Origin: Nymphaea colorata | Lineage: Eukaryota > Streptophyta > Magnoliopsida > Nymphaeales > Nymphaeaceae | DNA length: 64,000 nt | NCBI RefSeq assembly: GCF_008831285.2 | Contig: NC_045151.1 | Location: forward strand, 124,001-188,000 | Direction: 5' to 3' | Shown here: positions 7,061 to 43,997 of the stretch, in pieces | Numbering within the stretch: the first letter of the stretch is position 1 | Layout: every line of letters starts with the position of its first letter | The notes under the pieces: generated by a model | The model's database searches: none | What the model was told of the DNA's origin: nothing | Seen by the model: only the letters and a program-made list of their open reading frames with translations | Made by a program: the position numbers and the translations under genes

Positions 7061-7140
7061 TGGCGGCGGAGGAAGCTTCTCATTGGAATACAGCCTACTT
7101 TCTTTTGCTTTCTCAACCAGTTTTTCGCTTTTAGCATGAC

Positions 7141-19835: not shown

Positions 19836-22380
19836 CCTAGTTTTACATAAATGATGTCGTGCCTAAAACATATGCCTCAGGCTCGAAGGGCGTTTGAGGA
19901 CAAACTTATGCGCTTCGCACCCGTGAGGCGCATGCTTGTGGGAAAGTTTGCCTCACCTATATGCCTCAAGGTGTTTTAATGAAAAGACGGCCCAAGGCAT
20001 AAGGCTGGAAGCATGAAGCGCACTTGTTACTGTAAGGAATGTTTGCTCACACAATTTCCAAGAGTCATATTTCACGTGCAACCTTTTTGTTCCCGAGCGT
20101 CTTCACCATTCTTAGAGATGTTCATAGGCGGCGTTAAACCTATTAATGTGAACATTTCCACTGTATACTTTTTTGATATTGCCTGTTTTGTATTGTTTCT
20201 TAGATATTATTTGCTCAACCTTTTCTTTGCTTTGGATTTCTTAAGGATTAGTGTTTTAGTTTCTTTCTCATGCATAAAATGGATTAGCATATGCATTGTC
20301 TTATGATGGAAGAAGAACTTGTGTTGTACTTTTTTTTGCTTGGCTCGGGTGATCTCAAGGATGGAGTCAAAAATTTTTCATGAGGTGGGCCAAATTAAAG
20401 TTTCTAAATTTTGACAGGAGCTAAATATCATTTGTCAAAATTTTTATATAGGACAAGTCAAATTTTCTAAAATTTAGATGTAATGTAGGTGATATGAAGC
20501 ATTAGTTGCTTTGTTGTTTTGGTGTATTAGATACGCACTTGTTGCTTTGTACCATTGGAAATACAACCGTAACAAAATTTATAAGTGGTAATTTTTCTTG
20601 TGCAACAAACACAAAGTTTTTTTTCTAGAAAAAAACTTCCAAGCCGTCAAACATGGCCTGTTTTTGGAAAAGCAAAATTTCACCCTCCGTAGACTTTTTC
20701 TGGAATTTATTTAATGGAAAGCTTACCTCCAAAAGATATACCCTGCCATCAAACGATACCTAAAGGTTTAGGTATTGAAGGTGGTTACAGCGCAGGTTGG
20801 TGAATTTTTTTTTTTTTGCACCAATATGATTAATAACCAAAAAGCCTTCGTTAATAAAAAAATCTTTTTGTAGAGACAAAAAAAATAAAAAAAAAAGACT
20901 GGAAACGTCATTTGTTTTTAAATAATCTCTAAAATACCCCAACTCCTGCTCTGCTTTTGTTGGCAGATATGTCTTGCGTGCACCGTAGTGCATGCAACTG
21001 ACTTTCCATGTGTGCACATTATTGTATTGAGTGTCTGCACATTTATCATGCAAGCACTCAGGATCAGAAGACCAGATAGATTCATTCAACGCAAAAAGAC
21101 CTGCTCATGTATTTGTGCCACTGACACTTTTTTAAATGATCAGGCAAGATAGTTCAGGCTATTGAATGATCACAGGACGTTAATGGCTTGTCACAGTTAA
21201 ATAATAGTTTGATTCTTTAAGGAAATTTATTTTTGATGCAAAATAATGTCGCAATTTAAGTGTTACAGGCTTATCGCAAGCTTTGCTTGTTAACAGGTTT
21301 TCCATATATATATATATATATATATTGTAATATACTTTCCATAGCCACTGCCCAAATCAGTAGGAAGGAGGAAGAACCAAGCTGGCTGGGACGTTTCAAT
21401 CAAGTAATGAAGAATTTAGGAAGAAATTTTAGGTCGTCCGGTGACCCTACATGCATTTTTGTATAAAAGAAGATTGCTGACATACCATGTACTCATAGTC
21501 TTTATATGCGGCTGTATTCTTTATTGAGGATAAGAATGAAGAATATGTATTATGTTCAATCCTTTCACCACCATCTTATATGCAAAGAAATGGCTACGGT
21601 AGTTCCTTTCAAGGTGGGCACTGGCCAGGTGCTAGAAGAAAAACAGGTCTGCAGTTGGTTGGAAATTAAATTGAGGCGCCAATTTTCATGGAGAATCTCG
21701 CCCATCTAATGAACAAACAAGATGGGCATGAGCCTCTCAAGGTTTTAAAAAATAAAATTTTAAATATTGTTTTTGTTTAGAAATTTTAATTTGGCTACCA
21801 AAGCAATTTTGGAAAATACAATTGGCTCCCACAAAGTAGGTTGAAACTGGTCATTGCACACTGTTGCTGCATGTGCACACTGTTGCTGCATGGGGGTTCA
21901 AAGGAGTTCAAGCAGTGCCAACAAAATAGGTTGAAACTGGTTATGTGCACACTTTTGCTGCATGGGGGTGTATAATGACCAAAATACCATTGAATGTTAA
22001 ATAAAGTGAAAAGAGAACTTTTACTGAAAGGTCCATTTTTTATAAAAAAATTCTAAAATTCCCAAACCTCCATCCTTTTTCCTCTGGAATATCTCTATCT
22101 CTAAGGGTGGTGGCCTTTTTAAAATAAGTCTGCCATCACCCATTGATTTGTCCCTTGTACATTGTACTTGCCCATATGGCTTTGGCATTTCTGGCAACTC
22201 AATTTCTCTGATGGTGAAAATGAGCATGGAAGGATCGGTTTTCGTCCTTTGACTTAAATGGTTTATCAATGCGGTAACATGGAAGATGATCAGCCATTCA
22301 AGACCAGTCCTTGGACTTCCACTGTTTATGTTTCTGTAATTATTTTTGTCACTAAAAATTAATTTTTGTGAATTTGTTTG

Positions 22381-22383
<3 letters not shown>
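19836..22383. other. No gene recognised; short repeat remnants
   Basis: At 19,870-20,010 there is a patch rich in GCCTCAAGG and GCGCTTCGCACC words, of a kind common in plant dispersed repeats. A short duplication of GCACACTGTTGCTGCATG lies at 21,860-21,980. The remaining open frames are short and unmatched. Confidence 0.4.

Positions 22384-22473
<90 letters not shown>
22384..22473. repeat. Compound (CT)n(AT)n microsatellite
   Basis: A (CT)n run of about 15 units passes directly into (AT)n of about 30 units. Confidence 0.97.
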
Positions 22474-22477
<4 letters not shown>

Positions 22478-23199
22478 TGAAACTGTTGCTAAAACTTCAA
22501 AACTGTGCCTAAAAGTTTTCTAAGTGCGGAGATATTAGCAACCAAAACAATTGCTAAATGAAGCACTCTTAGCAACTATTTTGGCTGCTACAGCTTTTGA
22601 GATTTAGTGATGGTATTAAGCCAATGCTCAATTAAAAGGCATTTTCTCGTTGTAAAGTTGTGATTCAAATAAATTGGAGTTTCTTTTTCTTCAAGTATCA
22701 TTATGAGGCCACTTGAATTTGTTTACGGAAACATAAAGTCCAAATTCTCAAAGATCTTTAACTAGCGTACATTATTCTTTGACCTTTTGTATTGAATAAT
22801 TCATAGTCAAGAAGAAAATAGATTTATTTTGTGCAAAATAAATAAGAAACGTAAGGACATCTTACTTTTTTCAGTTTAATAAATGCACGTATGACATGAA
22901 AAACACAAGTTAAAGCTCTTAGAAGAAGCAGTAAGATAAATTTTTTACTTCAATGATGTAAGATGCAACACCTTTCGGCTCATCATGGTGTTGTCCATTA
23001 GTATACTTCTGATGCTATGTGCAAGCAAAATGTGCTTGTCTAGGAGACAATTTGAGGATAGAGCATGGAAATAAGTGTTCTCTAATGGTACGCATATGAA
23101 AGGCCATAAAGTCTATAATTTAGGAAAACATGAAATTTCTACAAAGTTGAATGGTTTTTGTCAATGAAAGTGTCTTTCCATTTCATAATGGGGGAGGGC
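22474..23199. other. No gene recognised
   Basis: This is AT-rich sequence with no supported feature. Confidence 0.4.
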
Positions 23200-23965
23200 G
23201 TTGGGTTTTTCTCACGAACTCTATTCTGTCAAATGAAGTACAGACATAAATTAGGGAAATTTAAATACAAAGACTCACCCTTTAGAATGTATAGTTGTTA
23301 ACATTATATGTGGGCAGCATTGGATGTCAGCATTTATATGAAAACTTAAAATGTCCATCTTTGTTATCAGATATATGCATCAAAAGACAGGCTTCTTTAT
23401 TTATCCTGCAACTCTAAAAATTAAACCAATTGCTTCTGGCTTTAGTGCTATATCTCTCATTTTTCATCCAAGTCTTCAAACAATGGTAGATAAGGGGGTC
23501 TTTCTAGCAACTCTACTCCCCCAGATAAAACACAAGCTACAATTAGGAAAACTTTAATTCATACATTGAGACTGGAATACACAACCGTTGGTGCCAATTT
23601 AAAAGGCATTGAATGCCAATATTAAAAATGAAACCTAAAATTTCCATGTTTATTATGGACGGCATCAAGACACACACTTTTTTTACTTATGTAACTTCCA
23701 AATTTGAATTATTACTATATCTCCAATTTTATGCCTAGGACATCCAAGTTTTCAAACAATAGTGCATACATGGGGTATTTCCACCTATTATATCCTCTCA
23801 AATAAAGCACGAACTTAAGTTTGGAAAACTTAGATATTTGTATCCGATTGGAACCTACATCTGGTAGAGCTAAATGTTATGATGGCATCCAATGTCAAGA
23901 ATAATATTAAAAGCTACAATTGCCATCCAAGTTATTGATACATCGAGAAATGAGCTCTTTTACTT
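23200..23965. repeat. ~285-bp degenerate tandem repeat, about 2.5 copies
   Basis: Repeated landmarks are TCTACTC...ATAAA-CACAA, GCATCAAGACACAC-like and TCCAAGTCTTCAAACAAT. They recur about every 280-290 bp. Relatives lie at 45,950-46,195 (inverted) and 51,840-52,746 (direct). Confidence 0.65.
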
Positions 23966-24514
23966 ATGTGTCTAGTGTTGCCCAAAATGTTGTTTTCTGG
24001 TGTTATTCATGTACACACATAGTTTTTCTTTAAATTTGTTTGTTGAAGGACAGATCCCTGTGTCCTAAAATATTTTTTTTCACTTGTTTTCCTAAAGATT
24101 TATCTGTATATTGCCTTTTGCTTGATATGTGACTTTTACTGTGATTTTATTTGTGTACTCTCTTTTATAATTGGGCTATTTGAAATGAGAATTTTTGAAA
24201 CAGGGGCTGTAGCTTCCAAGGTGACATCTTTTTCAAGATTTTACTTCAATCCAAAACATCGGATTCTTGAAGTTTAGACATAAGGAAGAGGATCCATTTG
24301 CTTTGCAAACACTACTTCTTTGTTTTTTTTAAAAAAATTCTCATAGACATAACTATTTTCCTTTGACACTTCTGACGCCCCATGTAACTGTGTCACTTTA
24401 CTCTTGCCAACTTTGGGAAAGTATAAGCCCTTAGCGATGTTGGCTCCAAAATTCCCTTTTTTTGTAAGCCAGAAATAGCTTTTTTGGATTTCAAAAAGGG
24501 TGCCTCACAAGTTT

Positions 24515-27500
24515 ATTGACGGGTTGATTCATATTGCAATGACACTCAACAACATCACCATCACATCTCCATGACTAAAATCCTCTCCACCGTCCACTCC
24601 TTTGCGCGCACAATGTCATCTTCCATTTCATTGCCACCGAAGATGATAGCGAGAATGACGAACCTTGTTGCACACATTTTCCCACCGAGGCAATGTAGCT
24701 CGGCTTTCTCGCTATAATCATAGGTGACGATCAATGGAGACAATGTTGCTCGGCCTTCCAATTTTCTCTAAACATTTTATATATATATATATATAGTGTC
24801 CTTCAAACACTACTATCACAGAGATTAAAATTTTAAATATACAGGTAAAGTTGTATTGAATTCACTTGGCAATTCAAAGCCACTGAATATGGATCCAGAT
24901 TTTACAGGTCCAATTTCGAGAGACCATTATCGCCCTGTCCGAACCGTTCATTAGCTCAATCCACAGAGAAGCCTTCCTGGACCAGGAAGGCCACCTCAAC
25001 TCCTCAACTTAAAAACCAGAGCGGCCCCTCTCCATTTCTTCTGGTCATCGTTCTTCTTCTTCCTTTCGACGCCATTGTTCTATGGCAACTACCTCTCTCC
25101 CCTGCTCCGTTCCTCCGTCTGCCTCCGTCTGTTGGGCCAAGGAGCAGATGGAGGAACGGAGGAGGGGAGAGAGATAGTTGCCATAGAACAATGGCGTCGA
25201 AAGGAAGAAGAAGAACGATGACCAGAAGAAATGGAGAGGGGCCGCTCTGGTTTTTAAGCTGAGGAATTGAGGTGGCCTTCCTGGTCCAGGAAGGCTTCTC
25301 TGTGGATTGAGCTAATGAACGGTTCGGACAGGGCGATAATGGTCTCTCGAGATTGGACCTGTAAAATCTGGATCCATATTCAGTGGCTTTGAATTGCCAA
25401 GTGAATTCAATACAACTTTACCAGTATATTTAAAATTTTAACCTCTGTGATAGTAGTGTTTGAAGGACACTATATATATATATATATATGTATAAGATGT
25501 TTAGAGAAAATTGGAAGGCCAAGCTACATTTTCCCATGTAACTATGTCACTTTACTCTTGACATCAAAATGACACTCAATGATATCACCATTACTATTCC
25601 ATGGTCCATAACATCTCAAGCAATCCCTTGCTCGGACAACGTCATCTTCCATTTTATTGTCATTGATGCTGATAGCAAGGAGCACGAACATTGCCAGACA
25701 ACTATCTCCATGTTTCCCCACCTAGGTGGTGGAGATCGGTCTTCTCACTATAGTCATTAGTGCCAACGAAATGGAAGATGATGTTCTCCGGGCAAGGGAG
25801 TGCTCTCAAAAATATCTATGATGATGGGTTGATTCACATTGCAATGACACTCAACAACATCACCATCCCAGATCGGTGATTGAGATCCTCTCCATCGTCC
25901 ACTTCTTTGCCCCCACAACATCGTGTTCCATTTCATTGCCACCGAAGATGATAGCGAGAATAACGAACTTTGTTGCACACATTTTCCCACATAGGCAATA
26001 TTGCTCGGCCTTCTCGCTATAATCATAGGTGCTGATGAAATGGAAGACAATGTTCACTGGGCAAGGGATTCCAGGCTATATCTATGATGATGGGTTGATG
26101 CACATGAAATGACACTCAATGGTATCACTGTTACTATTCCATGGTCGAGATCATCTCTATTGTCAAGCACTCCCTTGCCCAGACAACATCGTCTTCCATT
26201 TTATTGTCACTGATGCTTATAGTGAGAAGCACAAACTTTGCACACAACTATCTCCTTGTTTCCCCACCTAGGTGGTGGAGCTCGGCCTTCTCGCTATAGT
26301 CATCAGTGGCAATGAAATAGAAGATGTTTTCCGGGCAACGGTATGCTCACCAAAATATTTATGATGATGGGTTGATTCACATTAAAATGAGACCCAACAA
26401 CATCATGATCGCAGATCCATGACTAAGATCCTCTCCATCGTCCACTCCTTCGCCCAAACAACATCGTCTTCCATTCCATTGTCACCGAAAATGATAGTGA
26501 AAACGACGAACTCTGTTGTAGACATTTTCCCACTTAGGCAATGGAGCTCGACCTTTTCATTGTAGTCATAAGAGACGATGAAATGGAAGATGACGTTCTC
26601 TCGGCAGGGGATTCCTGGTGATATCTATGATGATAGGTTGATGCACATCAAAATGATACTCAATGACATCACCATTACTATTCCATGGTCGAGAACATCT
26701 CTATTGACAAGCAATCCCTTTCTTGGACAACATCATCTTCCATTTTATTGTCAATGATGCAGATAGCGAGAAGCACGAACTTTGCCACCGAACTATACCC
26801 ATGTTTCCCCACCTAGGTGGTGGAGCTTGGCCTGCTCACAATAGTCATCAGTGGTAATGAAATGGAAGATGATGTTCTCCGGGCAAGGGTGTGCTCACAA
26901 AAATATTTATGATGATGGGTTGATTCACATTAAAATGACACTCAACAGTATCACCATCGTGGCTACATGACTGAGATCCTCACCAGTGTCCACTCCTTCG
27001 CCCAAACAACATCGTCTTCCATTCGATTGTCACTGAAGATGAAAGCGAAATTGACGAACTCTGTTGCGGACATTTTCCCACCTAGGCAATGGAGCTCGGC
27101 CTTCTTGCTATAATCATAGGAGACGATGAAATGGAAGATGACGTTCTCCGGGCAGGGGATTCCTGGTGATATCTATGATGATGGGTTGATGCACATCAAA
27201 ATGACACTCAATGATATAACCATTACTATTCCATGGTCGAGAACATCTCCACTGTCAAGCAATCCCTTGTTCCGACAACATCATCTTCCATTTCATTGTC
27301 ACCGATGCTAATAGGAAGAAGCATGAACTTTGCCACACAACTATCTCCATGTTTCCCCACCTTGGTGGTGGAGTTCAGCCTTCTCGCTATAGTCATCAAC
27401 GGCAATGAAATGGAAGATGATGTTCTTCGGGCAAGGGAGTGGTCGCAAAAATATTTATGATGGTGGGTTGATTCACATTAAAATGACACTCAACTACATA

Positions 27501-28600
27501 ACCATGTGGCACCATGACTGAGATTCTCTCCATCATCCACTCATTCGCCTGAACAATATCGTCTTCCTTTTCATTGCCGCCGAAGATGATAGTGAGAATG
27601 ACAAACTCTGTTGCACACATTTTCCCACTAAGGTGATGGAGCTCGGCCTTCTCGCTATAATCATAGGTGACGATCAAATGGAAGACAACGCTCTCCGGGT
27701 AGGGGATTCCTGGTGATACCTATGATGATGGGTCGATGTGCATCAAAATGATACTCAATAACATCAGCATTACTATTCCATTGTCGAGAACATCTTTATT
27801 GTCAAGCAATCCCTTGATCGGACAACGTCATATTCCATTTTATTGACACCGACGCTGATAGTGAGAAGCATGAACTTGGCCGCACAACTATCTCCATGTT
27901 TCCCCACCTAGGTGGTGGAGCTCGGCCTTCTCGGCATAGTCATTAGTGGCAATGAAATGGAAGATGATGTTGTCCAGGCAAGAGAGTGCTTGCAAAAATA
28001 TCTATGATGATGGGTTGATTCACATTGCAATGACACTCAACAACATCACCATTGCAGATCCATGATTTAGATCTTCTCCATCGTCCACTACTTTGCCCAG
28101 ACAACATCGCCTTCCATTTCATTACCACCGAAGATGACAATGAGAATCACGAACTTTGTTGCACACATTTTCCCACTTGGGCAATGGAGCTCCGCCTTCT
28201 CGCTATAGTCGTAGGTAGAGACGAAATGGAAGACAACGTTCTCCAGGCAGGGGATTCCTGGCAATAACTATGAAGATGGGTTGATATACATCGCAATGAC
28301 ACTTGATGATATCACTATTACTATTCCATGGTCGAGATCATCTCTATTGTCAAGCACTCCCTTGCCCGGACAACATCGTCTTCCATTTTATTGTCACCAT
28401 TGCTGATAGGTGGAAGCACGAATTCTGCCACACAACTATCTCCATGTTTCCGCACCTAGGTGGTGGAGCTCGGCCTTCTCGCTATAGTCATCAGTGGCAA
28501 TGAAATTGAAGATGATGTTCTCCGGGCAAGGAAGTGCTCGCAAAAATATTTATGATGATGGGTTTATTCACATTAAAATGACACTAAAAAATATTTATGA
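24515..28600. repeat. Satellite-like array with a ~546-bp dimer period
   Basis: Two alternating monomers of about 270 bp build this array. The A monomer starts ATGACACTCAACAACATCACC-like (24,540; 25,843; 26,383; 26,931; 27,480; 28,027). The B monomer starts ATGACACTCAATGATATCACC-like followed by ATTACTATTCCATGG (25,566; 26,104; 26,650; 27,198; 27,744; 28,293). B-to-B spacing is 538-549 bp. A and B are themselves related, sharing for example GGAGCTCGGCCTTCTCGCTA, so the unit arose by duplication and was then amplified as a dimer. Short open frames are frequent but not conserved between copies, so I do not call a gene. A palindrome interrupts the first A unit. Confidence 0.9.
24747..25524. repeat. 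Near-perfect 0.78-kb palindrome with a transit-peptide-like start in each arm
   Basis: The arms (about 24,747-25,120 and 25,145-25,524) are inverted copies with a loop of at most about 30 bp centred near 25,133. By eye only scattered substitutions separate them. The outermost matching bases are GCTCGGCCTTCC against GGAAGGCCAAGC. Each arm holds a (TA)n run, a unique-looking stretch, and an ATG (25,082 on +, 25,184 on -) preceded by a UTR-like pyrimidine-rich leader and followed by a Ser/Pro-rich frame: MATTSLPCSVPPSA on + and MATISLPSSVPPSA on -. That composition resembles a chloroplast transit peptide. A transcript through this site would fold into a very long hairpin. It could be a foldback element that captured a gene 5' end, or an inverted duplication of a host gene start. 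Confidence 0.88.
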
Positions 28601-28609
28601 TGATGGTGG

Positions 28610-29770
28610 AAGACATCTACATGATGCAACCATAAGACTTTTAGGTACATAAACAAGAAAGTCTTGTATGCAAATTGGAAAAGAGTTTGGTTGAAACATG
28701 CACCAAGGCAGTGATATAATAAGTTTGATAGCTTCACAAAAAGAAATGAATTAAAGAGATGTGATATGAATCATTATTGTTACTTTAAGAGACTTGATAG
28801 TTCCTATATTATTTTGCTCTTGTATGTGAATGATATGTTTGTTGCAGGTTCTAATCTACATGAGATCAATATGTCAAAACAACAGTTATCAAGGAATTTG
28901 CAATGAAGGACTGATGTGCTGCGAAACAAATTCTTGGAATAAGAATAATGAGAGACATAAAGACAAGTACTTTAAAATTATCTCAAGAAACTTATATTGA
29001 GAAAATCTTGTACATGTTCAAAATGCAAGATGAAAAAGCTGTCACCCCTCCCTTGTCATGTCATTTTCAAATTTCAAAGGACTTATCACCCAAGACACAA
29101 GAAGATCACGAAGCTATGTCCAAGATCCCTTATCCATCTGCCGTAGGAAGTCTGCTACGGTTTGCACTAGGCCAAACATTGCACATGTAGTGGCAGCAAT
29201 GAGTAGATACATGTCCAATCAGGGTGGAAAGCATATGGAAGCTGTTAAGCTGATCTTGAGATATTTGAAGGGAACTTCAGGGTTGTCATTTTGCTTCAGA
29301 AAAAATGATTTATCTTTACAAGACATGTGGATGTAGATTTAGGAGGTGACATTGACAATAGAACGAGTGCTACTGGATATGCCTACAGTTTTGGTGAAAC
29401 ATGTGCTAGTTGGTTATATAAATTTCAGAAGATCGTTGCAGTATCTACCACTAAGGCAGAATATGTTGCCATTACAGAAGCAAGTAAAGATGTTATTTGG
29501 CTGAAGAACCCTTTAAGGAGTTGGACAGAAAAATAGGTGGAAGTGTTCTTTTCTGTGATAGCCAAAGTACTATTCATTGAGCAAAAAATCTTGTGTTCTA
29601 GGCAATGACAAAACATATACAGCTGAAGTATCACTTTATTCATGACTTGTTGGAAGGTAATGTGTTGTCACTTGAGAAGATTTGTGGAGTAGAGAATCGA
29701 GTAGACATGTTGACAAAGTCTGTGATTGCTAAAAAATTGAGGCTATGTATGACCTCATTTGGCCTCTAAG
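28610..29770 (+). pseudogene. copia reverse transcriptase/RNase H fragment, left-arm copy
   Basis: Recognisable blocks are LLLYVNDMFVAGSNL (palm motif with Asn for the first Asp), LSQETYIEKILYMFKMQDEK, MSKIPYPSAVGSL, AAMSRYMSNQGGKHMEAVKL, VDVDLGGDIDNR, STTKAEYVAI and KHIQLKYHFIHDLLEG. Stops and frame changes occur throughout. Everything upstream of the late reverse transcriptase is missing, and the fragment starts directly after satellite sequence. It is followed by a purine tract and an LTR. Confidence 0.87.
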
Positions 29771-29854
29771 GTTAATTGTAGAAGAGGTGCCACAGAGGCG
29801 ATTTGAAGGATGAGTGCAAGGCTTGAATACTAAATCAGTCTCAAAGTGAGAGAT

Positions 29855-30118
29855 TGTTTGAGTGTGGAGCCTGATCCATACTTGATAGCCTTCCCTTTGC
29901 AGGTTTTGCCCAAATCATATGTTTATGAGGGCACCGATTTGGCTTGTACTTTATAATTTTTCGTGATAGTGAAAACTGCTCTGGGTGGCTGCCATGGATG
30001 TAGGAAAACGTTGTCTTCAAACCACTTAAAATCTTTATGTGTTCTTTCTCTCTTTCTCTTATTTTGATAAAATTCTCTTGGTGCGGTAAGAGAGTGTGAA
30101 AGGGTCGAGTTTCTAACG
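29855..30118 (+). repeat. copia 3' LTR, left-arm copy
   Basis: This follows the purine tract CAAAGTGAGAGAT, begins TGTTTGAGTGTGGAGCC and ends near TTTCTAACG. The matching right-arm copy is 42,396-42,659 (264 bp), where the corresponding start is TGTTGGAGTG. Confidence 0.78.
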
Positions 30119-30593
30119 TGCGATGCAAGGTAGTTCTCCATCAAGCTGATGTCTTTCAGCTTTGGGGTTTTACTTTTTTGAGATCGTGTCTACTGAAAGG
30201 AATTCTTCCTTCAATCAACCTGGACCTTGTGCAATATGTAAGTCAAGATTATACAAATTGTTCTCTGTTTCACAAATAAATGCGAGTAAGGAGGCTTTTA
30301 GAGATTGACATGTAGTTGGTGGGTCTGTATTGGTTAGACATAGGGACATTGGAATTTAAGGGGTAAGCACTGTTGGTCTTAAAATATTGTAACAAAAGAA
30401 ATTGACTTCACTTCTTTGCATCAAGAGGAAAGTCAATCTGCTTATGCAAATTCTTGGTTGCTCTTTTGTAGCCTCCTTCTTTCTTCCAGACAATATATTT
30501 CTTCTGTTGTGACTTTCAGGCAGGAAAACAAGGCGCCTTCATTATTACTTGGAAGGCCAGGGTATTAATCCTCTCCTTTTATTTCTTGTGAGC

Positions 30594-31563
30594 AAATGTC
30601 ACCAGGATGCAGCAAAAATGGACCCGCACCCATGTCGACGCGATGCGGGCGCTGATTCGGGTGCGGGTGCGACCTAGATTTGCACCCAAGCCGCACCTGC
30701 TCATGAGCTCACACCCAAATCGCACCGGTAACGAGAGAGGGCGGTAGGGAGAAGGAGAGAGTAAGGGGTGGAATGCGAGAGGAAGAGAAGGCGAGTGAGG
30801 AGTGCGGGAGAAAGGGACATGATTTGGGGAAACGATTTGGGTGATTTGGGGAAACGCTCTGGGGCATTGGGGGAAACGATTTGGGGGAAAGGGAGAGCAA
30901 AGGGTGAGGGGGACTGAACGCAAGAGGAAGAGAGGGCGAGTGAGGAGTGCGGGAGGAAGAGATGTGCAGACAGAGAGGGCTCCAGTGAGGGGGAAATAGA
31001 TGCTCACCTTTGTCGATGCTCACTTGGAAGAGGGCAACGAAGATGGAGATAGAGAGGAAGACAGGGAAGAGGAAGATGCTCACCTGTGTCGATGCTCACC
31101 CGTGCAAGAGGGCAATGAAGAGGGAGATAGAGAGGAAGACGGGGAAGAGGAAGATGAGGAAGGGGAACCCGTCGGGCTTCCTCTCGAGCCATAGAGCTTG
31201 GGTCTGAATTTGAATCCCGATCCAATTAAACCAACCCAAAGCCAAAATCCTTATAGACGACTTATAGGAATACCCTCGTTAGTGAACAACGGAGCACTTC
31301 ACCCCATCCCTCCAACCCCGAACCTAACCTCCTTATTAAGAAAGAAAGGAAGGGGAAAATTGCAATTTTTATTTGGATATTTAATAATTTTGTGATTTAT
31401 AGATAATTTTGTCATATATATTAGTCTTTGTTACTATTATAAATTAATAATAATAATAAATATTCTTGCCGCACCGCCGCACCTAAATTTTTTAAAATGC
31501 GCCGTACCGACACAGGCATCCGCACCCGCGTCTGCACCCGCATCCCGCATCTTGGTGACATAG
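30594..31563. mobile_element. Non-autonomous DNA transposon, left-arm copy
   Basis: The ends are inverted: AAATGTCACCAGGATGC on the left and, reverse-complemented, CTATGTCACCAAGATGC on the right. A 9-bp direct repeat CTTGTGAGC flanks it (30,585-30,593 and 31,564-31,572). The subterminal parts are rich in GCACCCGCACCC-type words and the middle in GAGGAAGA purine runs. No transposase is encoded. The 8-9 bp duplication fits hAT or Mutator-like transposons; the exact class is open. Apparent long Pro/Ser- or Arg/Glu-rich frames inside are low-complexity artefacts. Confidence 0.75.
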
Positions 31564-31620
31564 CTTGTGAGCTTTCAATCTCTCTCTCTCTCTCTCTTTC
31601 TCTCTTTTTTTCATGTTCTA
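31564..31620. repeat. (CT)n tract at the arm-asymmetry junction
   Basis: A pyrimidine run leads into TTTTTTTCATG. In the right arm the equivalent (GA)n run is at 40,951-40,989 and the A-run at 35,937-35,946, and about 5 kb lies between them. The tract thus marks the breakpoint. Confidence 0.8.
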
Positions 31621-32233
31621 TTGGAAATGAGGCTATGTCCTTCCCCAGACTGTTTTTGTTCTAAAAAAAGTTCGTCATTTCTCAGGCCTTGGATTATCAC
31701 TAGAATGTGTTTATCTTGGTTTTCAAATTCATCAACATTTTGGCATAATAAGGGCAGGTGATTTCTTGATTGTTCAAAGGACATTATTTGATGTACAAAA
31801 TTAGAGTATGTTATAATTATATTCTCAAATTTGTAAAATTGGATGTCTTAAAGAAACTCTTTAGTGTGCAGCTCTATGAAATTTTGTATACTATTTTCTA
31901 GTTGCTTTATTAATTAATTAGTTGTGCATTGTATCTTCAATTACAAAGTTTGTCTTGAATGGCATAACTTTTGTTCACAATATAAATCAGAGCTAGTTAT
32001 TGTGTTCTGAAAGAACTACTAATTTGTGTTGAATGGCAAAGTTTTTGTTTTAAGATGTTGCTAATTTTGTTACCGGCTTGATGTTTGACTTACATTTTAG
32101 ACAATTTGTTATATTTGGTCTATTGAAATAGAGAAAACATGAACTTTGATGGAGAATGAAGCTTGATACGTCTTCATGCACTTCCAGTTTTTAGTATTTA
32201 GAAACGATCTATAAGATTTGCTTATTATTGCAG

Positions 32234-32285
32234 GTTTCTCGAAATGATGAGACTAGGAAAAGTCAAGGATCTGGTTATGTTATAA
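32234..32285 (+). pseudogene. Exon-like copy of the gene at 35.2-36.1 kb
   Basis: After a TATTGCAG acceptor the frame reads FLEMMRLGKVKDLVML and then meets TAA, where the right-arm copy has CAA and continues. The upstream partner exon is absent from this arm. Confidence 0.45.
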
Positions 32286-32575
32286 TGGGTTCAAGGGGTA
32301 AAGCTGCACTTTCTGCATTGAATAGAGCTGTGAGTCACGTAATTGTAACCTTGAGATGAATTTTAGGTGTATTTTCTAGTTATTGACATCAAAGGTAATT
32401 CAACAATGTTTGTGGGATCTTGTGTGCTTTTAATTGTTTCATGTCTACGGTAATGTAGTTGGACACGAGTTTGTTTGCTGGATTGTTAGGAAATGAGACA
32501 CTATGCTTCTTATACAAGTAGGAAAACTAAATATTATCTTTGTCTATCTGAATTTTCACACTTCTCTTTCTTTGC

Positions 32576-33632
32576 CCCTAGTTATTTTCAGTTACCTCAA
32601 TACTTGATAGTTAAATTGTTTTGTATATTTTAATGTATTATGAATAATTGTGATATTCGTTTTTTTTAAATAATAAATTTCGTGACACGGTAAGCGCGTT
32701 ACTAAAGACCACCACCTGGGCTTCTGTGACGTGGATTAATGTAATCTCTAACGTTGGATTGAATGTTAGGAAATGTATCATCAGTAAAAAAATCAGCCAC
32801 ATAATGTTTGGTAACGCACATGGCAACGTTTAGGCCACGTTACAAAATATCTAAATCTGTTCTCCAATGTCACTAAATGTGAAATTTCTTGTTGTGTTCG
32901 GACAAGGTCATATGCTTACCAGCATTGTAATGACCACACACATTGTCCTTTAGTAAAGAAGATGATCAAACAATGGTAGTTGTAGCATAAAAAAAATTTT
33001 GCACAAACTGATGAAGAAGAACCCTAATGAAAATATTAATGAATCTAATGAATTGTGAAAGGGAGAAACTACCAAATGCTTTATGCAAAACAAAAAAAAA
33101 AACTTGTTGTGGGTGCTCCAGTAGAAGGAGAAAAAAAAGGGAAAAAGCTTATCGATCGGCTGAAGTGCTTCAACAAGGTCAAAGGTTGATTTGCCGATCT
33201 AGCAAACTGTTCATCTTCCACATAAACCACACAAAATTTTTGGCATATGTGGCACTGCCAATGGCCAAAATTGTTGCCAATAGAATCTCGAGACTGAAGG
33301 TTTGATCAAGGCAACTTCCTTTTTATTCCAACAGCTTGATGGGAGAAGAAGAACCAAGTGCTCAGCCCTCCGCCCACTGACAATACACCAAAAATGGCGT
33401 GGTGGAGCGAGGTAGGGCGATACAGACTATGGCATACAATAACCTTGATAACTTAGATTATACTAAAGTATATATAGATTTCAAATTTAATTATTTATTT
33501 CGTTTTGGGAAGAGAAAAAAAGTTCAAAGAGAAAATTTTCTCTGGCTCAGATATCAATGTCGGCAGATACCTGTAACAATATAACGCCAACCCGAATCTC
33601 GTAGGTGAACAGTAATCCAAACCAACCAGTTC
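32576..33632. other. Spacer of the giant inverted repeat, no gene recognised
   Basis: This unique sequence lies between the arms. It includes an AT-rich part and a short Lys/Arg-rich open frame (33,027-33,305, +) without a domain. The BAHD gene fragment follows. Confidence 0.45.
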
Positions 33633-34532
33633 TCAATAAGAAGGAAGGAGTGCATCCAATAATTCTTCATCCAACTCCAGGGCAGCCATAACATGAGGGA
33701 GAAGGCAGACTTCCAGATCCATGCTGCCACCCTCACCTTTTCCGAGGAAGACTGAAATTCTACCACGAAACTTATTGACACTCCCGCTGAGCACCGCTAA
33801 CCCTTTCCCCCACCCAAAGTTACTCCCATACATCTCTAACCATGGGGAGCTGGCCACCATAACATCATTCGATTCAAACACATTCGCATCATACAATTGT
33901 ATGTTCATGAGCCACTGCCGACCCATGTTGGCTGTTTCCCTCAACACGGTCTCATGCAGCACCCGGGCTGCCCAACCCAGGTTCTGCCCGAGCAGCTCAC
34001 CCACCTTGGCCTCCGTCGACAAGAATAGCATGCAACTGCCGAAGTACTCCCGGGGCAAAGTTGGGTCCAGCCTCTTTCGAAGCCCGGCTGCCAACTTGCA
34101 GGCAGTGATCTGGTTGGCCCGGAGCTTCCGGGCCCATGTTATGGTCCGCCACATGAGCCCAACAAGTGCCTGCAATGACGAGATCTCACCCCTCTGCAGC
34201 TTCGAGTGCTTGTTGGCCTTGGCCTTGATCCGGGATATGGCTTCGGCACTGAAGCAGAAGTGGACTTGGCGGGTTGGAGGACGGTGTTCAGACAGTGGGA
34301 AGTGGACTTGGCGGAGCTCCTTCGGGATCTGGGCTTGCTCCATCAATGGCGGTCGCAATATGGTTTCATGGCCGGCATTGAGCTCGGACCAGGAGTTGAA
34401 GAAGTGCCAGAAGGACTCACCGTCAGCTCCAGTATGGTTGAGGGAGCAGCCTATCAAGACACCGTCCTCCAACTCCGTTACCAGAAATGAATGCATTTCA
34501 TTAGATGCATCGAACTCAAAATTTTGTTTCAT
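33633..34532 (-). pseudogene. BAHD acyltransferase, N-terminally truncated
   Basis: The 299-residue frame matches the C-terminal two thirds of plant BAHD acyltransferases, which move an acyl group from acyl-CoA to an alcohol or amine in specialised metabolism, in the cytosol. The catalytic HxxxD motif is present as HTGAD (residues 33-37) followed by GESFWHFFN. The structural DFGWG motif appears as NFGWG (238-242). The end (GSMDLEVCLLPHVMAALE) is typical of the family. Families usually have 430-460 residues, so about 130-150 N-terminal residues are missing. The sequence upstream of the Met at 34,532 has in-frame stops and no similarity. The closest remembered group is the uncharacterised acetyltransferase clade around Arabidopsis EPS1-like proteins; the substrate is unknown. 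The frame is free of stops, so truncation may be recent, or a first exon lies elsewhere. It is the only gene in the spacer of the giant inverted repeat. Confidence 0.85.
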
Positions 34533-34927
34533 TCTTAAAATTTTGACTCCCAGTAAAACTCATTTTTATATGCCCAAATCCACACCTTCAACTTCTCTTT
34601 CCCAACTTAAAGCCAATCTAGAACCTTAATCTATTTGATTTATGCAACTTATATTGTATTCCATCCTGTTCAACCCCAATGAACCCACTCAATTAAGGTA
34701 CAAGACCTTTATTTTAGCTTGACTGTTTTCTCCTAGGCTGCTCTGATGGGCCCAATTACCGTTAAGGTTGACCTGAATTATAAGGGATTGCTTTAATACA
34801 GTTAATTTCAAAAAATCAAATCATGTCGACTGCAGGAACCATATTATTCCTATTTCAGCTCCACGTAGAAATATTTTGAAAAATTATTCTGACAAGTCAC
34901 AGCCTATGCAATCTTGTCTGAAGGACA

Positions 34928-35945
34928 GCAAAGAAAGAGAAGTGTGAAAATTCAGATAGACAAAGATAATATTTAGTTTTCCTACTTGTATAAGAAGCAT
35001 AATGTCTCATTTCCTAACAATCCAGCAAACAAACTCGTGTCCAACTACATTACCGTAGACATGAAACAATTAAAAGCAAACAAGATCCCACAAACATTGT
35101 TGTATTACCTTTGATGTCAATAACTAGAAAATACACCTAAAATTCACCTCAAGGTTACAATTACGTGACTCACAGCTCTATTCAATGTAGAAAGTGCAGC
35201 TTTACCCCTTGAACCCATTGTAACATAACAAGATCCTTGACTTTTCCTAGTCTCATCATTTCGAAAAACCTGCAATAATAAGCAAATCTTATAGATTGTT
35301 TCTAAATACTAAAAACTGGAAGTGCATGAAGACGTATCAAGCTTCATTCTCCATCAAAGTTCATGTTTTCTCTATTTCAATAGACCAAATATAACAAATT
35401 GTTTAAAATGTAATTCAAACATCAAGCCGGTAACAAAATTAGCAACATCTTGAAACAAAAGCTTTGTCATTCAACACAAATGAGTAGTTCTTTCAGAACA
35501 CAATAACTAGCTCTGATTTATATTGTGAACAAAAGTTCTGCCATTCAAGACAAACTTTGTAACTGAAGATACAATGCACAACTAATTAATTAATAAAGCA
35601 ACTAGAAAATAATATACAAAATTTCATAGAGCTGCACACTAAAGAGTATAATTATAATTCAGAAGATCACAACTCAAATTTGTAAGACATTCAATTTTAC
35701 AAATTTGAGAATATAATTATAACATACTCTAATTTTGTACATCAAATAATGTCCTTTGAACAATCAAGAAATCACAAGCCCTTATTATGCCAAAAGGTTG
35801 ATGAATTTGAAAACCAAGATAACCCAAAGCAAGATAAACACATTCTAGTGATAATCCAAGGCCTGAAAAATGACGAACTTTTTTAGAACAAAAACAGTCT
35901 GGGGAAGGACGTAGCCTCATTTCCAATAGAACATGAAAAAAAAAA
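34928..35945. repeat. Right arm of the giant inverted repeat, inner part
   Basis: Inverted copy of about 31,610-32,575. The inner edge is GCAAAGAAAGAGAAGTGTG. The similarity stops in an A-run at about 35,937-35,946. Confidence 0.92.
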
Positions 35946-36124
35946 CACTTAGAAACAATAATGATATGTACCTGTCCAATTCCATATGCTCAGCCTCAAC
36001 TTGCTGCAAGGAATGATTTATAGCAGCTACAGAGGAGAATCCAAAAGAGTAAAAGTGTGGTGGGGGAACATAACAATTCATAAATGAGAGAGAACTGGCA
36101 AGAAGCATCACAATAATCCATGTC
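35182..36124 (-). CDS. Two-exon 3' end of an unrecognised gene
   Basis: Exon A (36,124-35,972) has a TTTTATAG acceptor and a CAG|GTACAT donor. Its open frame has a hydrophobic stretch (TWIIVMLLASSLSFM) and then AAINHSLQQVEAEHMELD. Exon B starts at 35,269 after TTGCAG. The splice phase (two bases plus one) gives Arg and then FFEMMRLGKVKDLVMLQW and a stop at 35,182-35,184. The join of a helical sequence across a correct phase supports a real gene end, but I do not recognise the family. One possible membrane helix is visible. Exon B is also in the left arm with a stop; exon A is not. A second frame of exon B is open too, so the model is tentative. Confidence 0.4.
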
Positions 36125-38776
36125 CTATAAAAGTAAAACAGAGAATAATGATGAAAATTAGAACTAAGATTATTAAGATGCAAAATGCAAAGTTCCTTTT
36201 GTTTAACCTTCGATTACTCCATGGAAATAGTTGTCTTGCCATCAACATACACCTCTGACCACATCCAAATTGTCCCAAAATAGCTAACGCATCAATAAGT
36301 TAGGAAATTTGTGATGGGCACTATTATAGAGATTGTTCATCTTACTCACATAAAAAATATGAGATTCTGAAAGTAAGTGTAACCAGCTTGACTAGCTGAA
36401 ATCCATCCACTTGATGATAAAAAGAAATAAAGGCTATAAGACAACCTCATTTAAAGGCAAAAAAATATGTTCCATGAAGATTTTCTTGAAACATTCATAG
36501 GGTAGAAGGAATATTGTAAACTAACATTCAAATGTTTCACAAAGGATGACACATTCATCTAAAAGAAAATACTCACTTCAGCATAGAGTGTGGAGGAGGG
36601 TGTCATTGGTAGCATAAATATGTCATATGTACAGAAAACACAAAATCTATGTAACATCCTATCTTTGTAGAGGTCACCACATCCATATGTTTATATATGA
36701 CCTAAAACCAAAATTAAAATCATACAGATATTTATTAAAACAAGAGACTTAGAAATGCACAACCACAAATGGCCTAAATGGGTAACTACCGACCACAAGT
36801 GATTCTCTATTGGACCAAATTTAAGCATAAATAAAGAGGTTTTACCGAGCATATATAAAATGGGGTTGGTAAGATTATAGCCAATTCATGTATTGAAATT
36901 GTAATGTTTGGCGAGTGGGGTAGGTCGGGCTGGATTAGGGTCTAGATTTGGACCCGAATCTCACCCGCATGAAGAGGAGGCCTGATGCCGGCTCTCCCTC
37001 TTCATCTCTCTCACTGGCTCGTGCACGACGCAGAAAAGCAGGAGGTGGAAGATAGAGCAACGGTGGTGGAGGTGAAAGGCAGCGGTGGTGCTGAGGTGAG
37101 CCCTCTCGAACTCTCTCTGTCGCTTCTGTCTTCTCCTTCTTCCAAACCCTATATCGCACCTCTGTCCCTCTCCCTCTCCCTCTCGTTGTTCTCTGCCTGT
37201 CTCCCAGTTGTCTCGACTCTTCCACCCTTTTTATTTTCACCTCCCAATTTCTTTCTCTCTCTTATCTCCCTAGGGTTCTTCTGGTCTTGTAGCCATCTCC
37301 CCCTATTTCTCTCTCTTCTCTGTAAGGACGAAAGACGGACACCCCCTCATCTTTAGTGGTTGAAGAATATTGTCGTTTGATGCTGATCTACAGAGCATCT
37401 GATGGTAATTAGATGGTCGATCATTGTTGTTTTTGCCCTGCCCATGCTATTGCTTCCGTAGCAGATGGTCGATCGTTCATGGAGTTCGCAAAGCCACCAG
37501 TGTCTACATCCCTTTCCATTGTTTGGCATCATACATCTTGTAGTCCATTTCTCTCCATTCACTTCCTCATTTTTTTTTCTTCCGTTCTTTCTCTCCATTA
37601 ATTATCTCTTCCGCTTTTAATTTCTTCGTCCTCTCTTTTGTCTTTGTTTGTTGCCAAACCCCATTTCTTGTTGAAGCGCCAGTGGAGCATAACAATATGC
37701 CATGTGCTAGTGATTAGGTGAAGAACCACCAACAGTGATGGCCTTCCTTCTGCAAGAGTTTGTTATGTCTGCTGGTAACTGGGAAGAAACTATAAGTATT
37801 GACTGAGACATCAACTTAAACATATCAACATGGCACAGCACCTTTTTCTTACTAAAAGACTATTAGAGGGAGGCTTAGGATTGGTTTGAAACCAAACCCC
37901 CCCAAAAACACTCAGAGAAATTTCTCTTACAAAAGCAAAGTTCTATATGCCCCCTCATGTATGTAATGTGCATATACCGAATGTAGATCCTACTATGTAT
38001 GCATGTGAAATGACAAATAAGTATGAGACACTGTTCACGAAATAACAAAAGATTGATGAGATAATGAACAGAGGGATGTAAGAGATAACATCAAATATAA
38101 GTATGAGATAATGTTTTTGAGATAATACTAAATTTATGAGATAGTGAGATAACAAATGGATGCATGAAATAACACTTAACATAAGTATGCGACAATAACA
38201 TATTAATGAGATAATGAGATAACACTCTAACCGGGACAAAAAAACGAAAATGTGTTTTAGTGCTTAAAAAGGTATATTGGTCATAACGATATGCATATGC
38301 GGACTGACAAATTTTTTTTTTATCGAATCTCATTGCGGTTTCTGTTTTTATCCCTACACAAAGTTTCTTTTTGTTTTAATTATGTTTTTTTTTTGTCATA
38401 TGCGCTTGAAATTACATACACAGAAGTGGTGTATATAACTAACTTCGCAAATTTTCAGTGCAATGTTGAGTTCTGCTCACCAAGTGGTGTATGCAACAAA
38501 TATGCATCGAAAAGGAAAGGGGTTTTTTAATAAAGAAATACTTTTTAAACTTTTCATTCTTTCATATTCCTTTTTTATCCTTGAAAAAGGGCTCCCTTTT
38601 TACTTAGTCATCAAAACTAGTTTTGGAAAAATTGATATTTCAAATGAAATATCACCGAGTATGTTCTATTGTAAGTATGGAGTCATATTGTAATTATGGG
38701 GTCAGAACATGCCAAAAAAAAAATTCCATGAGCTTCAAGGATATCCTCCTCACGATCATCTTCATAGAACAACTCC
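36125..38776. other. Right-arm-only segment, no gene recognised
   Basis: This is part of the ~5 kb absent from the left arm. At 36,970-37,350 there is a GC-richer, pyrimidine-rich stretch resembling a plant 5' UTR and first exon on the plus strand (MPALPLHLSHWLVHDAEK), without a domain. At 37,990-38,240 a degenerate repeat of TATGAGATAATG words occurs. The upstream exons of the gene at 35.2-36.1 kb should lie here but could not be identified. Confidence 0.4.
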
Positions 38777-39434
38777 TCAAGTGACCACCAAGGTGAATGC
38801 TAATAATTGAGACAACACTAGACTAGTGAAGGCCGATGAAGTTACTCTAACTAAGAGTGAATGTGAACAGGTTATGGCATTTAGCAATGCCAAGTTACCT
38901 ACAATCAACCTTGTTCTTATGTCATCTTCCTTCAAATTTTTGTCGTCATCGTGGATCATATATTCGGGAGCAAGTGATCATATTGTTCGCTTTTCTAAAT
39001 TTCTTAATCGTAGTTCTGATGTTTCAGGTAAATTTCTCTATGTCTCTAGTGCTCATGCCTCTCACCAAGCTGACGTGAAAATCTCAGATTCTTTGTTTTC
39101 AAGAATGTTCTTTGCATATTCCCTCATTCACGTTTGATCTTCTTTCTATTAGTCAATTGACAATAGAACGTGATGGACTGTACACAAAGCAAGCATGATT
39201 GCATTTCCTCTCGGTGCCATTAAAACAACTTGTATATTTGGATTGCTTCAGGTTTATTGGAGGCCAAATTCCTTTGCACATTATTTTTTGAGTATTGTTG
39301 ATTATGACTGTCAATGTTCATGGGTTTATCAAATGTTCCACAAGTCAGAAACACAATATTTACTAAACTTACTTTTCGCTATTGTTCAAAATCAACTTAA
39401 AAAAAATTCAAACTATCATGTCCAACAGATGTAA
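38777..39434 (+). pseudogene. Highly decayed copia gag-pol fragment
   Basis: The plus frame SSSWIIYSGASDHIVRFSKF resembles the copia protease start (WI-x-DSGASDH), with Tyr in place of the catalytic Asp. About 300 bp downstream, YFLSIVDYDCQCSWVYQMFH and KSETQYLL resemble the integrase core block FVDDYSRMTWVYLMKHKSE. Parts in between are lost. No LTR was found. Confidence 0.65.
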
Positions 39435-40950
39435 AATTTTTTCCTCATGATCATATGGGCGATTATTAATTCTTGACAAAGGTGCCAATTCAACAAAATT
39501 GTTGTTCTTGTCCTTAATTGCAGTTGACTCGAATATTCCTTTTTGCGTTGTTGAGCTCGTTATAAATCATAAATGCCTTGCAAATCTAGAGCCAATATTG
39601 ATTTAGATACATATTTTCTTTCAATTTTCTCCAGTATTTCTATTTTCTCCAGAAATGTTGCAATATTTAATTTCTAGTTGGCATATAAGCACCTTTCCTT
39701 TAAATTAAAACCAAATCTTTTTGAAGCAAAAGATTTCACCATCCAGATTTTACATGGCAAGCCAACAACATGTCAGAATTGAAAAGGAAACTATATTCTG
39801 CCCCTGTGGTGCGTTTTCTTCAGTTGGCTTTCTCAAACTTAGTATTATGTGATACAGAACCAACATAGGTTAATTTAATCAAATTTTCTTTCAACAAATT
39901 GTAGAGAAATCTTCTTTCTCAGTCATCCTACTTGATCAAAGCAAGAGATAACATTTTCAATATTGCATTGAATGAATTAAACAGGGACACGGGCTTGGAG
40001 TTTGTGGAGGTGAGGGATGGGACTGGAATTCATGGACCCATTGTTGAGAGAGACATGCCCACCACGTGAACCATTAAAATGTCTGCATATAGGCTTGCTG
40101 TTCAAGAAGATGCTGAAAAAAGACAAACCATGTCTTTTGTTCTTCTCATGCTTGGGGGTGAATCTTTGGCACTTCCGTGCCAATAGAACCTGCATGTTCT
40201 AACCAGAGAACCAAAGATGGGTTCAGCAGATCACAGCCTTATTCAGTAATGGGGTTACAAATACTGAAGCAACTCCAAGATAAAGGTGCCGCTCGACATG
40301 CTAAATTGCAACAATTCAAAGATAATAAACTTAGTTGTGACTTCACTTTATATTAGTTTGACTTTTTTGAATCATATAAGTGAAATTAAGTTATTTTACA
40401 AAAGTTTTATGTCTAAAAGACAAGTTATACATTATTCTTTCTTAAAAAAAGATAACATAACCCCGTGGTCCTAGTGTCCAAGTTGACCCATCGAGTCATG
40501 AGTCAAGAACAGCGGAGTTGAGTCCCAAGTCACTGGGTTTTCAAACATCGATTTGAGAAATTTAGATGTGTTATATATATATAGGACCTGTGCCGAAAAA
40601 GTTTTTTGAACGAAGGCAGCTTATTGTTCCTTATAAACGTACTCCCTCTAACACCTTAATATTCAGTCGGAAATTGTAACTGATTCCGTATTTGATAAAT
40701 TTGGCATTGCATTGACTATGTATCATAGTTATAGTGGGAAAAACTAACTTGTATTGTATCAAATGTGGACTATTGTTTTTTGGATGTTACTACTTACCAT
40801 TTCCCTCTTTATCTGCACTTTCAGAAATTTTTGAAACAGTAGACATTAATTTAAATCTTTGAAATAATACATATTTGTTTAAGCTCGATGCATGTTTGCA
40901 TAGATGAACATGTTCCTATAACCAAATGACACACCAGAACACACACACAG

Positions 40951-40954
<4 letters not shown>
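39435..40954. other. No gene recognised; ends in a (GA)n run
   Basis: This is the remainder of the right-arm-only segment. Open frames are short and unmatched. A (CA)n(GA)n microsatellite at 40,939-40,989 marks its border with the outer part of the right arm. Confidence 0.4.
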
Positions 40955-40987
<33 letters not shown>

Positions 40988-41007
40988 CGAGATTGAAAGC
41001 TCACAAG

Positions 41008-41920
41008 CTATGTCACCAAGATGCGGGAGCAGACGCGGGTGTGGGTGCTGGTGTCGGTATGGCACATCTTAAAAAATTTAGGTGCGGCGGTGCGGCAAGA
41101 CTATTTATTATTATTATTAATTTATAATAGTAACAAAGACTAATATATATGACAAAATTATCTATAAATCACAAAATTATTAAATATCAAAATAAAAATA
41201 AGGAGGTTAGGTTCGGGGTTGGAGGGACGGGGTGAAGCGCTCCATTTTTCACTAACGAGGGTTATTCCTATAAGTCGTCTATAAGGATTTTGGCTTTGGG
41301 TTGGTTCAATTGGATCGGGATTCAAATTCGGACCCGAGCTCTATGGCTCGAGAGGAAGCCCGACGGGTTCCCCTTCCTCATCTTCCTCTTCCCCGTCTTC
41401 CTCTCTATCTCCCTCTTCATTGCCTTCTTGCACGGGTGAGCATCGACACAGGTGAGCATCTTCCTCTTCCCTGTCTTCCTCTCTATCTCCATCTTCGTTG
41501 CCCTCTTCAAGGTGAGCATTGACACAGGTGAGCATCTGTTTCCCCCTCGCTGGAGCCCTCTCTGTCTGCACATCTCTTCCTCCCGCACTCCTCACTCGCC
41601 CTCTCTTCCTCTTGCGTTCAGTCCCCCTCACCCTTTGCTCTCCCTTTCACCCAAATCGTTTCCCCCAATCCCCCAGATCCTTTCCCCAAATCATGTCCCT
41701 TTCTCTCGCACTCCTCACTCGCCTTCTCTTCCTCTCGCGTTCCAGTCCCTTACTCTCTCCTTCTCCCTACCGCCCTCTCTCGTTACCGTTGCAGTTTGGG
41801 TGTGAGCTCATGAGCAGGTGCGGCTTGGGTGCGAATCTGGGTCACACCCGCACCCGAATCAGCACCCGCGTCGCGTCGACGGGGGTGCGGGTCCTTTTTT
41901 GCCGCATCCTGGTGACATTT
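41008..41920. mobile_element. Non-autonomous DNA transposon, right-arm copy
   Basis: This is the same element as 30,594-31,563 in inverse orientation, about 57 bp shorter through internal indels. The 9-bp flanking repeat is GCTCACAAG (40,999-41,007 and 41,921-41,929), the reverse complement of the left-arm one. Shared insertion site and duplication show that it predates the inverted duplication. Confidence 0.75.
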
Positions 41921-42395
41921 GCTCACAAGAAATAAAAGGAGAGGATTGATACCCTGGGCTTCCAAGTAATAATGAAGGTGCCTTGTTTTCCTGCCTAAAA
42001 GTCACAACAGAAGAAATATATTGTCTGGAAGAAAGAAGGAGGCTACAAAAGCGCAACCAAGAATTTGCATAAGCTGATTTACTTTCCTCTTGCTGCAAAG
42101 AAGTGAAGTCAATTTCTTTTGTTACAATATTTTAAGACCAACAGTGCTTACCCCTTAAATTCCAATGTCCCTATGTCTAACCAATACAGACCCACCCACT
42201 GCATGTCAATCTCTAAAAGCCTCCTTACTCACATTTATTTGTGAAACAGAGAACAATTTGTATAATCTTGACTTACATATTGCACAAGGTCCAGGTTGAT
42301 TGAAGGAAGCATTCCTTTCAGTAGACATGATCTCAAAAAAGTAAAACCCCAAAGCTGAAAGACATCGGCTTGATGGAGAACTACCTTGCATCGCA

Positions 42396-42659
42396 CGTTA
42401 GGAACTCGACTCTATCACACTCTCTTACTGCACCAAGCAAATTGAATCAAAAGAAGAGAAAGCGAGAAAGAACACATAAAGATTTTAAGTGGTTTGAAGA
42501 CAACGTTTTCCAACATCCATGGCAGCCACCCAGAGCAGTTTTCACTATCACGAAAAATTATAAAGTACAAGCCAAATCGGTGCCCTCATAAACATAAGAT
42601 TAGGGCAAAACCTGCAAAGGGAAGGCTATCAAGTATGGATCAGGCTCCACACTCCAACA
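42396..42659 (-). repeat. copia 3' LTR, right-arm copy
   Basis: This is 264 bp. Read on the minus strand, it starts TGTTGGAGTGTGGAGCC after the purine tract CAAAGTGAGAGAT and ends CTAACG. Confidence 0.8.
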
Positions 42660-42739
42660 ATCTCTCACTTTGAGACCGATTTCGTATTCAAGCCTTGCAC
42701 TCATCCTTCAAATCGCCTCTGTGGCACCTCTTCTACAAT

Positions 42740-43900: not shown

Positions 43901-43997
43901 TCTTCCACCATCATCATAAATATTTTTGAGTGTCATTTTAATGTGAATAAACCCATCATCATAAATATTTTTGCGAGCACTTCCTTGCCCGGAGAAC

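Follow-up and report, generated by a model that had tools for sequence, protein, structure and literature searches.

Two inverted copies of an ATG18/PROPPIN gene start form a hairpin in Nymphaea colorata that was probably built by templated break repair

A near-perfect hairpin in the genome of Nymphaea colorata consists of two inverted copies of the upstream region, 5' leader and first codons of an ATG18/PROPPIN gene. It probably arose in one templated break repair with fold-back synthesis, followed by segmental duplication and conversion between arms, and not by transposition. The hairpin lies in the window analysed here, a stretch of 64,000 nucleotides corresponding to C14:124001-188000. Plant MIRNA and hpRNA genes are thought to begin as inverted duplications of their targets, and a 2011 update of this model describes exactly how they originate as unresolved (PMC3237417). 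Since one genome holds the donor gene, a site in the state before insertion, the fillers and the point of turn-round, a break-repair origin is testable base by base. Among the top-ranked open-licence results of a literature search no description of this locus or of an ATG18-derived hairpin was found.

The structure had been noticed in a first-pass annotation as a near-perfect hairpin with arms of about 375 bp and a short loop, which was confirmed. Segments 24778-25122 and 25144-25488 are 98% complementary over 345 ungapped nt and are separated by 21 nt. With gaps allowed the palindrome comprises 24742-25122 and 25144-25530 (95.6% identity, 387 columns), giving arms of ~380 bp that differ by substitution at 10 of 381 aligned bases (K2P 0.027). 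The spacer is the smallest among the 25 inverted-repeat pairs listed of 62. RNA folding of 24739-25533 gave -707.6 kcal/mol, whereas 20 shuffled sequences averaged -211.7 (sd 7.4); since none of these 20 was as low, the hairpin is not a product of chance. The predicted RNA is a single long stem, as an hpRNA would have. The hairpin and its surroundings are made up of the following parts (positions in the window):

24379..24409, plus strand: 31 bp outside the repeat, to the left of the array, which probably served as template for the filler on the right (93.5% identical to 25533-25563)
24496..24747, plus strand: left piece of the interrupted first repeat unit (BLAST matches to other units end at 24747; aligns to the empty site at C14:59 kb)
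24742..24757, plus strand: repeat-derived outer end of the left arm (AATGTTGCTCGGCCTT), joined to CCAATTTTCTC; a similar motif occurs in repeat units
24758..25121, plus strand: left arm, facing inward, with the upstream region and 5' leader of the ATG18/PROPPIN gene and its first 13 codons (aligned to C5:25261492-25261872, minus strand)
25008..25067, plus strand: 60 nt without any difference between the parent and the six arms (mirror copy at 25199-25258 on the other strand)
25082..25084, plus strand: ATG of the left arm
25122..25131, plus strand: extra 10 bp (CCTCCGTCTG) repeating 25112-25121, left of the centre only; present in copy 2 too, absent from copy 3
25132..25140, no strand: centre TTGGGCCAA, matching the near-palindrome TTGGCCCAA of the parent on the other strand
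25132..25514, minus strand: right arm, same gene segment up to 17 codons, facing inward
25182..25184, minus strand: ATG of the right arm
25515..25530, minus strand: repeat-derived outer end of the right arm, inverted copy of 24742-24757
25533..25563, plus strand: 31-bp filler copied from 24379-24409 (93.5% identical), on the right side of all three hairpins
25561..28585, plus strand: repeat array resumes, phase unchanged

Each arm holds ~320 bp of upstream region (340 in the parent), the ATG and 13 codons on the left or 17 on the right. Because the promoter region is present in each arm, there are two copies of it, facing inward. The frames that follow the ATGs read as earlier described, MATTSLPCSVPPSA... 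in the left arm and MATISLPSSVPPSA... in the right one, and each meets a stop after 31 codons. The arm peptide gave eight matches to solved structures, all at chance level (E 0.23 or worse), and the longest open frame of the arm matched no Pfam family. An exact 32-mer of the arm was found in none of the viral contigs, a set that may omit the window's own genome. The arm also contains a perfect 21-bp palindrome GCCTTCCTGGACCAGGAAGGC (24971-24991), which owes its existence to differences from the parent, one specific to copy 1 and two specific to the arms.

The genome searched comprised 407.8 Mb in 783 contigs. This was a first-look search, in which counts for repeats are lower bounds. With the left arm as query, four candidates were obtained and all four were scored, yielding eight matches: the hairpin of the window (copy 1), two more hairpins on C14 (243924-244783, copy 2, and 309435-310215, copy 3) and one single copy on C5. 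The latter, C5:25261492-25261872 on the minus strand, is the sole non-palindromic match and is 92% identical. It sits at the start of a 347-aa stop-to-stop frame containing MATISLPSSVPPSAPWPN, which matches the Pfam PROPPIN family (E 5.8e-23, profile positions 5-219 of 345). The solved structures that it matches include WIPI3 (E 2.1e-60), WIPI4 and ATG18. A downstream frame also matches WD40, at 22.4 bits, under the curated cut-off of 27. A search of the genome for the PROPPIN family identified at least two places, one on C10 and the C5 parent, where the match of this search crosses one TAG just past the 347-aa open frame. By these profile and structure matches the parent is a PROPPIN (ATG18/WIPI), that is, an autophagy gene. 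The hairpin's two arms, adjacent and inverted, are thus similar over an extended length to a protein-coding gene located elsewhere, and the C5 match supports the proposal that it is an inverted duplication of the 5' end of a real gene, whose parent should be found elsewhere in the genome. The first-pass annotation had also read the arm peptide as a plastid transit peptide and the parent as a gene for a plastid protein. The former was interpretation only and was not borne out, and the latter is ruled out by the PROPPIN, WIPI and ATG18 matches.

As had been stated, the hairpin lies within the first unit of a tandem array. The unit is ~547 bp, and repeat homology, by BLAST between units, stops at 24747 to resume at 25561/25562. 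The repeat is local: one unit has at least 82 scored matches (11 scored candidates), all on C14 or in one array on C1, which does not support the status of a genome-wide satellite. Within the units there are inverted repeats of ~60-70 nt. No TTTAGGG/CCCTAAA, which would indicate a subtelomeric position, occurs in the first 3 kb of C14.

Both other hairpins lie within segmental duplications of the same neighbourhood and have collinear flanks. Copy 3 lies in C14:306016-315821, which over 9.9 kb is 95.2% identical to window 21304-31156. For copy 2, C14:244037-247546 matches window 24778-28303 at 92.3% and C14:243544-243972 matches window 24370-24795 at 96.7%, as far as a 5,000-N run; the left edge of this copy (C14:243544), considered as a breakpoint, is instead the edge of this run. 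Independent origin of the three hairpins is ruled out by shared joints, a shared filler and the collinear flanks. The state before insertion can be seen some 90 kb away, in a related array (C14:59.0-59.5 kb) that shares the left flank but has an uninterrupted repeat and no hairpin. Like the parent gene, an empty site is what the inverted-duplication idea had predicted, and it supports that idea. This empty site is a diverged paralogous array (flanks 87-91% alike), not an allele. Compared with it the occupied site has lost ~47 bp of one repeat unit and gained the hairpin with its fillers. The 24379-24409 sequence is also found left of the array at the empty site, with three mismatches to the 27-mer searched, and occurs once in the surrounding 7 kb (C14:56500-63500, up to 4 mismatches). 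In the arrays at C14:34 kb and on C1 the left flank is truncated, which makes them uninformative as empty sites. These two (C14:33734-34966 and C1:32458935-32460168) share the same truncated flanks, apparently by interchromosomal duplication.

The joints are informative on how the hairpin was made. The outer 16 bp of each arm are of the repeat type (AATGTWGCTYGGCCTT) and are joined to the gene's CCAATTTTCTC. The six arms all have this same joint, which the parent lacks; its microhomology was judged by eye at ~1 bp (C). At the other end of the copied segment the parent reads CTCCTTGGCCCAACC. In copy 3 the centre is CTCCTTGGCCAAGGAG, at the near-palindrome of the parent, and the inverted copy turns at TTGGCCAA; in copies 1 and 2 the centre is TTGGGCCAA, preceded by the extra 10 bp repeated from the arm. 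As read from this alignment, the turn-round point sits on a near-palindrome, TTGGCCCAA, already present in the first exon of the gene.

End joining is known to produce templated insertions, among them inverted and patchwork ones, as the pertinent parts of PMC11292364 and PMC11724301 describe for polymerase theta stem-loop synthesis and yeast foldback inversions. The hairpin shares with them a patchwork of pieces copied from nearby, a loss of DNA at the break (here the ~47 bp of the repeat unit) and an inverted copy that turns at an inverted microhomology. It differs in that the inverted copy is ~380 bp and its template lies on another contig. The yeast foldback inversions treated in that part of PMC11724301 involve 2 to ~150 bp of copied sequence, which the stretch copied here exceeds, and longer ones are cited there.

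The sequence of events that we favour would start with a double-strand break in the first unit of the local repeat, at which ~47 bp were lost. Synthesis from the left end would have used as template first a short piece of nearby repeat and next ~380 bp of the ATG18/PROPPIN gene, from the upstream region through the first codons, on another contig. At TTGGCCCAA the new strand would have folded back or switched to its complement; since fold-back there would need a very tight loop, a switch between sister strands may fit better. The segment would then have been copied again in reverse and on into repeat filler, after which 31 bp of nearby non-repeat DNA would have been copied and joined to the right end. 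Later segmental duplication would have given three copies, whose arms exchanged sequence by gene conversion. The joint shared by all six arms, the right-hand filler present in three of three hairpins, the uninterrupted empty site and the near-equal branches described below all count for such a break repair. Points against it are the short microhomology at the joint, the length of the copied stretch, and the low tree support and uneven flank divergence given below.

To compare arms and parent, the TA-repeat block and the outer repeat filler were dropped, and 349 columns were kept (344 ungapped). Among the parent and the six arms 35 of 344 columns vary. Parent and arms differ at 12-15 of these (mean 14.2), left and right arms at 9-15 across copies (mean 13.5) and at 8-12 within copies. 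The parent, left-arm and right-arm branches are thus near equal in a tree with low support (34-80) and no outgroup, and such a near-equal three-way split is expected if both arms arose at once. At site -262 from the ATG all three right arms have G, and the left arms and the parent have A, a pattern which implies that one hairpin predates the segmental duplications. Sites -75 and +22 likewise carry arm-specific variants. Seven other sites are common to both arms of one copy, two in copy 1 only, three in copy 3 only and two in L1, R1 and L2. In simulations without exchange, performed with seven parent-private sites set aside, equal rates at all sites and a fixed tree, at most three such sites occurred in 20,000 trials. 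Gene conversion between arms is therefore likely, as judged from this site pattern. Divergence of the flanks between copies is uneven (K2P 0.018 to 0.049), so the hairpin was left undated.

The origin that competes best, and which we regard as possible but clearly less probable than a single repair, is that a 5' fragment of ATG18 was inserted singly into the repeat, drifted and was later inverted-duplicated by a separate break, for instance by sister-end fusion at TTGGCCCAA. The same repeat-promoter joint on both arms is what would be expected if the joint preceded the duplication, and seven substitutions private to the parent, together with a 4-bp length difference, set it apart from all six arms; without an outgroup, these seven sites could partly predate the inverted duplication of a single-copy insert. 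However, a later duplication should have brought the arms closer to each other, and left-right differences about equal those between parent and arms; nor did the left-arm search find a single-arm insert in this genome.

A foldback or TIR transposon with captured gene sequence, the alternative that had been offered at first, is very improbable and we reject it. Long inverted arms in more than one copy would be compatible with such an element, but the three hairpins have collinear flanks, with both additional ones inside segmental duplications, and dispersed copies with common termini and target duplications were not found. In the first-look search, which may miss repeats, no same-ended copies are seen at unrelated sites, and what matches on C5 is one arm that lacks the outer ends. 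Relative to the empty site ~47 bp were lost, and there is no target-site duplication at the junctions; the only nearby direct repeat (31 bp) does not flank the hairpin's left side. Moreover, the arm ends are repeat of this very array and the 21-nt loop leaves no room for a transposase. Palindromes can come from long-read artefacts, through a missed adapter or a fold-back read, but a sequencing or assembly artefact is hardly credible here, given arms that differ at 10 of 381 bases, different arm variants in the three copies, and ends that bear fillers and run on into the array.

Other palindromic structures are present in the window. A larger palindrome (28516-43998), with arms 28516-31603/40968-43998 (94.3%) and 31605-32575/34928-35942 (93.0%), reads as a single inverted duplication whose right half alone has a 5-kb stretch (35943-40967); a BAHD-type acyltransferase frame (PF02458) is found in the spacer. 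As the 5-kb stretch is inverted at the equivalent of 31.6 kb in two segmental copies, the large palindrome looks copy-specific. The end of the large palindrome falls at almost the same position of the repeat unit as the break of the hairpin's left repeat piece. Adjoining the large palindrome at 43998 is a second hairpin (43998-45574; arms 681 nt, 93.7%, 215-nt spacer). Its relatives are two inverted copies on C6 (24197216-24201061), separated by a spacer of ~2.5 kb in which no open frame reaches 100 aa, and one piece on C10. Homology to C6 extends past the right end of this second hairpin. Two choline-kinase gene fragments (PF01633) lie ~50 kb apart, at 6675-7079 and 56217-56840.

In structure the ATG18-derived hairpin resembles a newborn MIRNA or hpRNA locus. 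Since the promoter-region copies face inward, RNA transcribed across the centre would form a hairpin. If there is transcription, starting in a flank or at an inward promoter region, it would give a near-perfect hairpin RNA that may serve as a DICER-LIKE substrate, and the products would be small RNAs matching the gene's upstream region and 5' leader. It is a tentative and rather unlikely further step that the three hairpins form a young trans-silencer, each carrying the donor promoter region twice and making its own hairpin RNA, with small RNAs that silence or methylate the ATG18 promoter and 5' leader. Equally doubtful is that they are an active hpRNA or proto-MIRNA gene which regulates the ATG18 parent in trans and has been kept for that role. 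In the 795-nt hairpin, 120 of 775 21-mers match the parent exactly on the plus strand and 147 of 775 on the minus strand, and the 60-nt stretch before the ATG that is invariant in the parent and six arms has P of about 0.03 under uniform placing. Selection on this stretch was considered and not retained: the value is weak, an invariant run among the arms alone is not unusual (P about 0.11), and arm-to-arm conversion keeps arms alike without selection. A scan of the whole window against Rfam gave no match at the gathering score, and thus no known structured RNA or MIRNA family.

Precedents for an active role are MIR163 and Mu killer. In the part of PMC1790633 that concerns its origin, MIR163 has arms with extended similarity to a protein-coding gene and arose with its donor promoter duplicated too; the arms of our hairpin are ~380 bp and still nearly perfect, and its origin reads as break repair. 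Mu killer of maize, as the relevant sections of PMC3440606 present it, is likewise a natural inverted duplication in which the promoter-bearing end occurs twice and both gene parts meet mid-way, but it is transposon-derived and acts in trans, by a route to silencing that is disputed in that source, while the present hairpin derives from a host gene. The PAI inverted repeat of Arabidopsis also consists of inverted gene copies that may silence relatives by small RNAs, according to the passage of PMC2289841 on it, but contains whole genes, and only a gene start is found here. Hairpin precursors repressing self-incompatibility genes keep proto-miRNA features and act outside canonical silencing pathways, in the account given in part of PMC13128112, so the silencing route is not readable from structure.

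What is new at this locus is a readable record of a birth, comprising a break, local filler, a distant gene copy, fold-back, a second filler and joining. If the silencing reading is true, the small RNAs of this locus would be directed at a named host gene, and the origin of the locus through templated break repair could be followed base by base. Should small RNAs be found, the locus would test how a newborn hairpin affects its donor, an autophagy gene.
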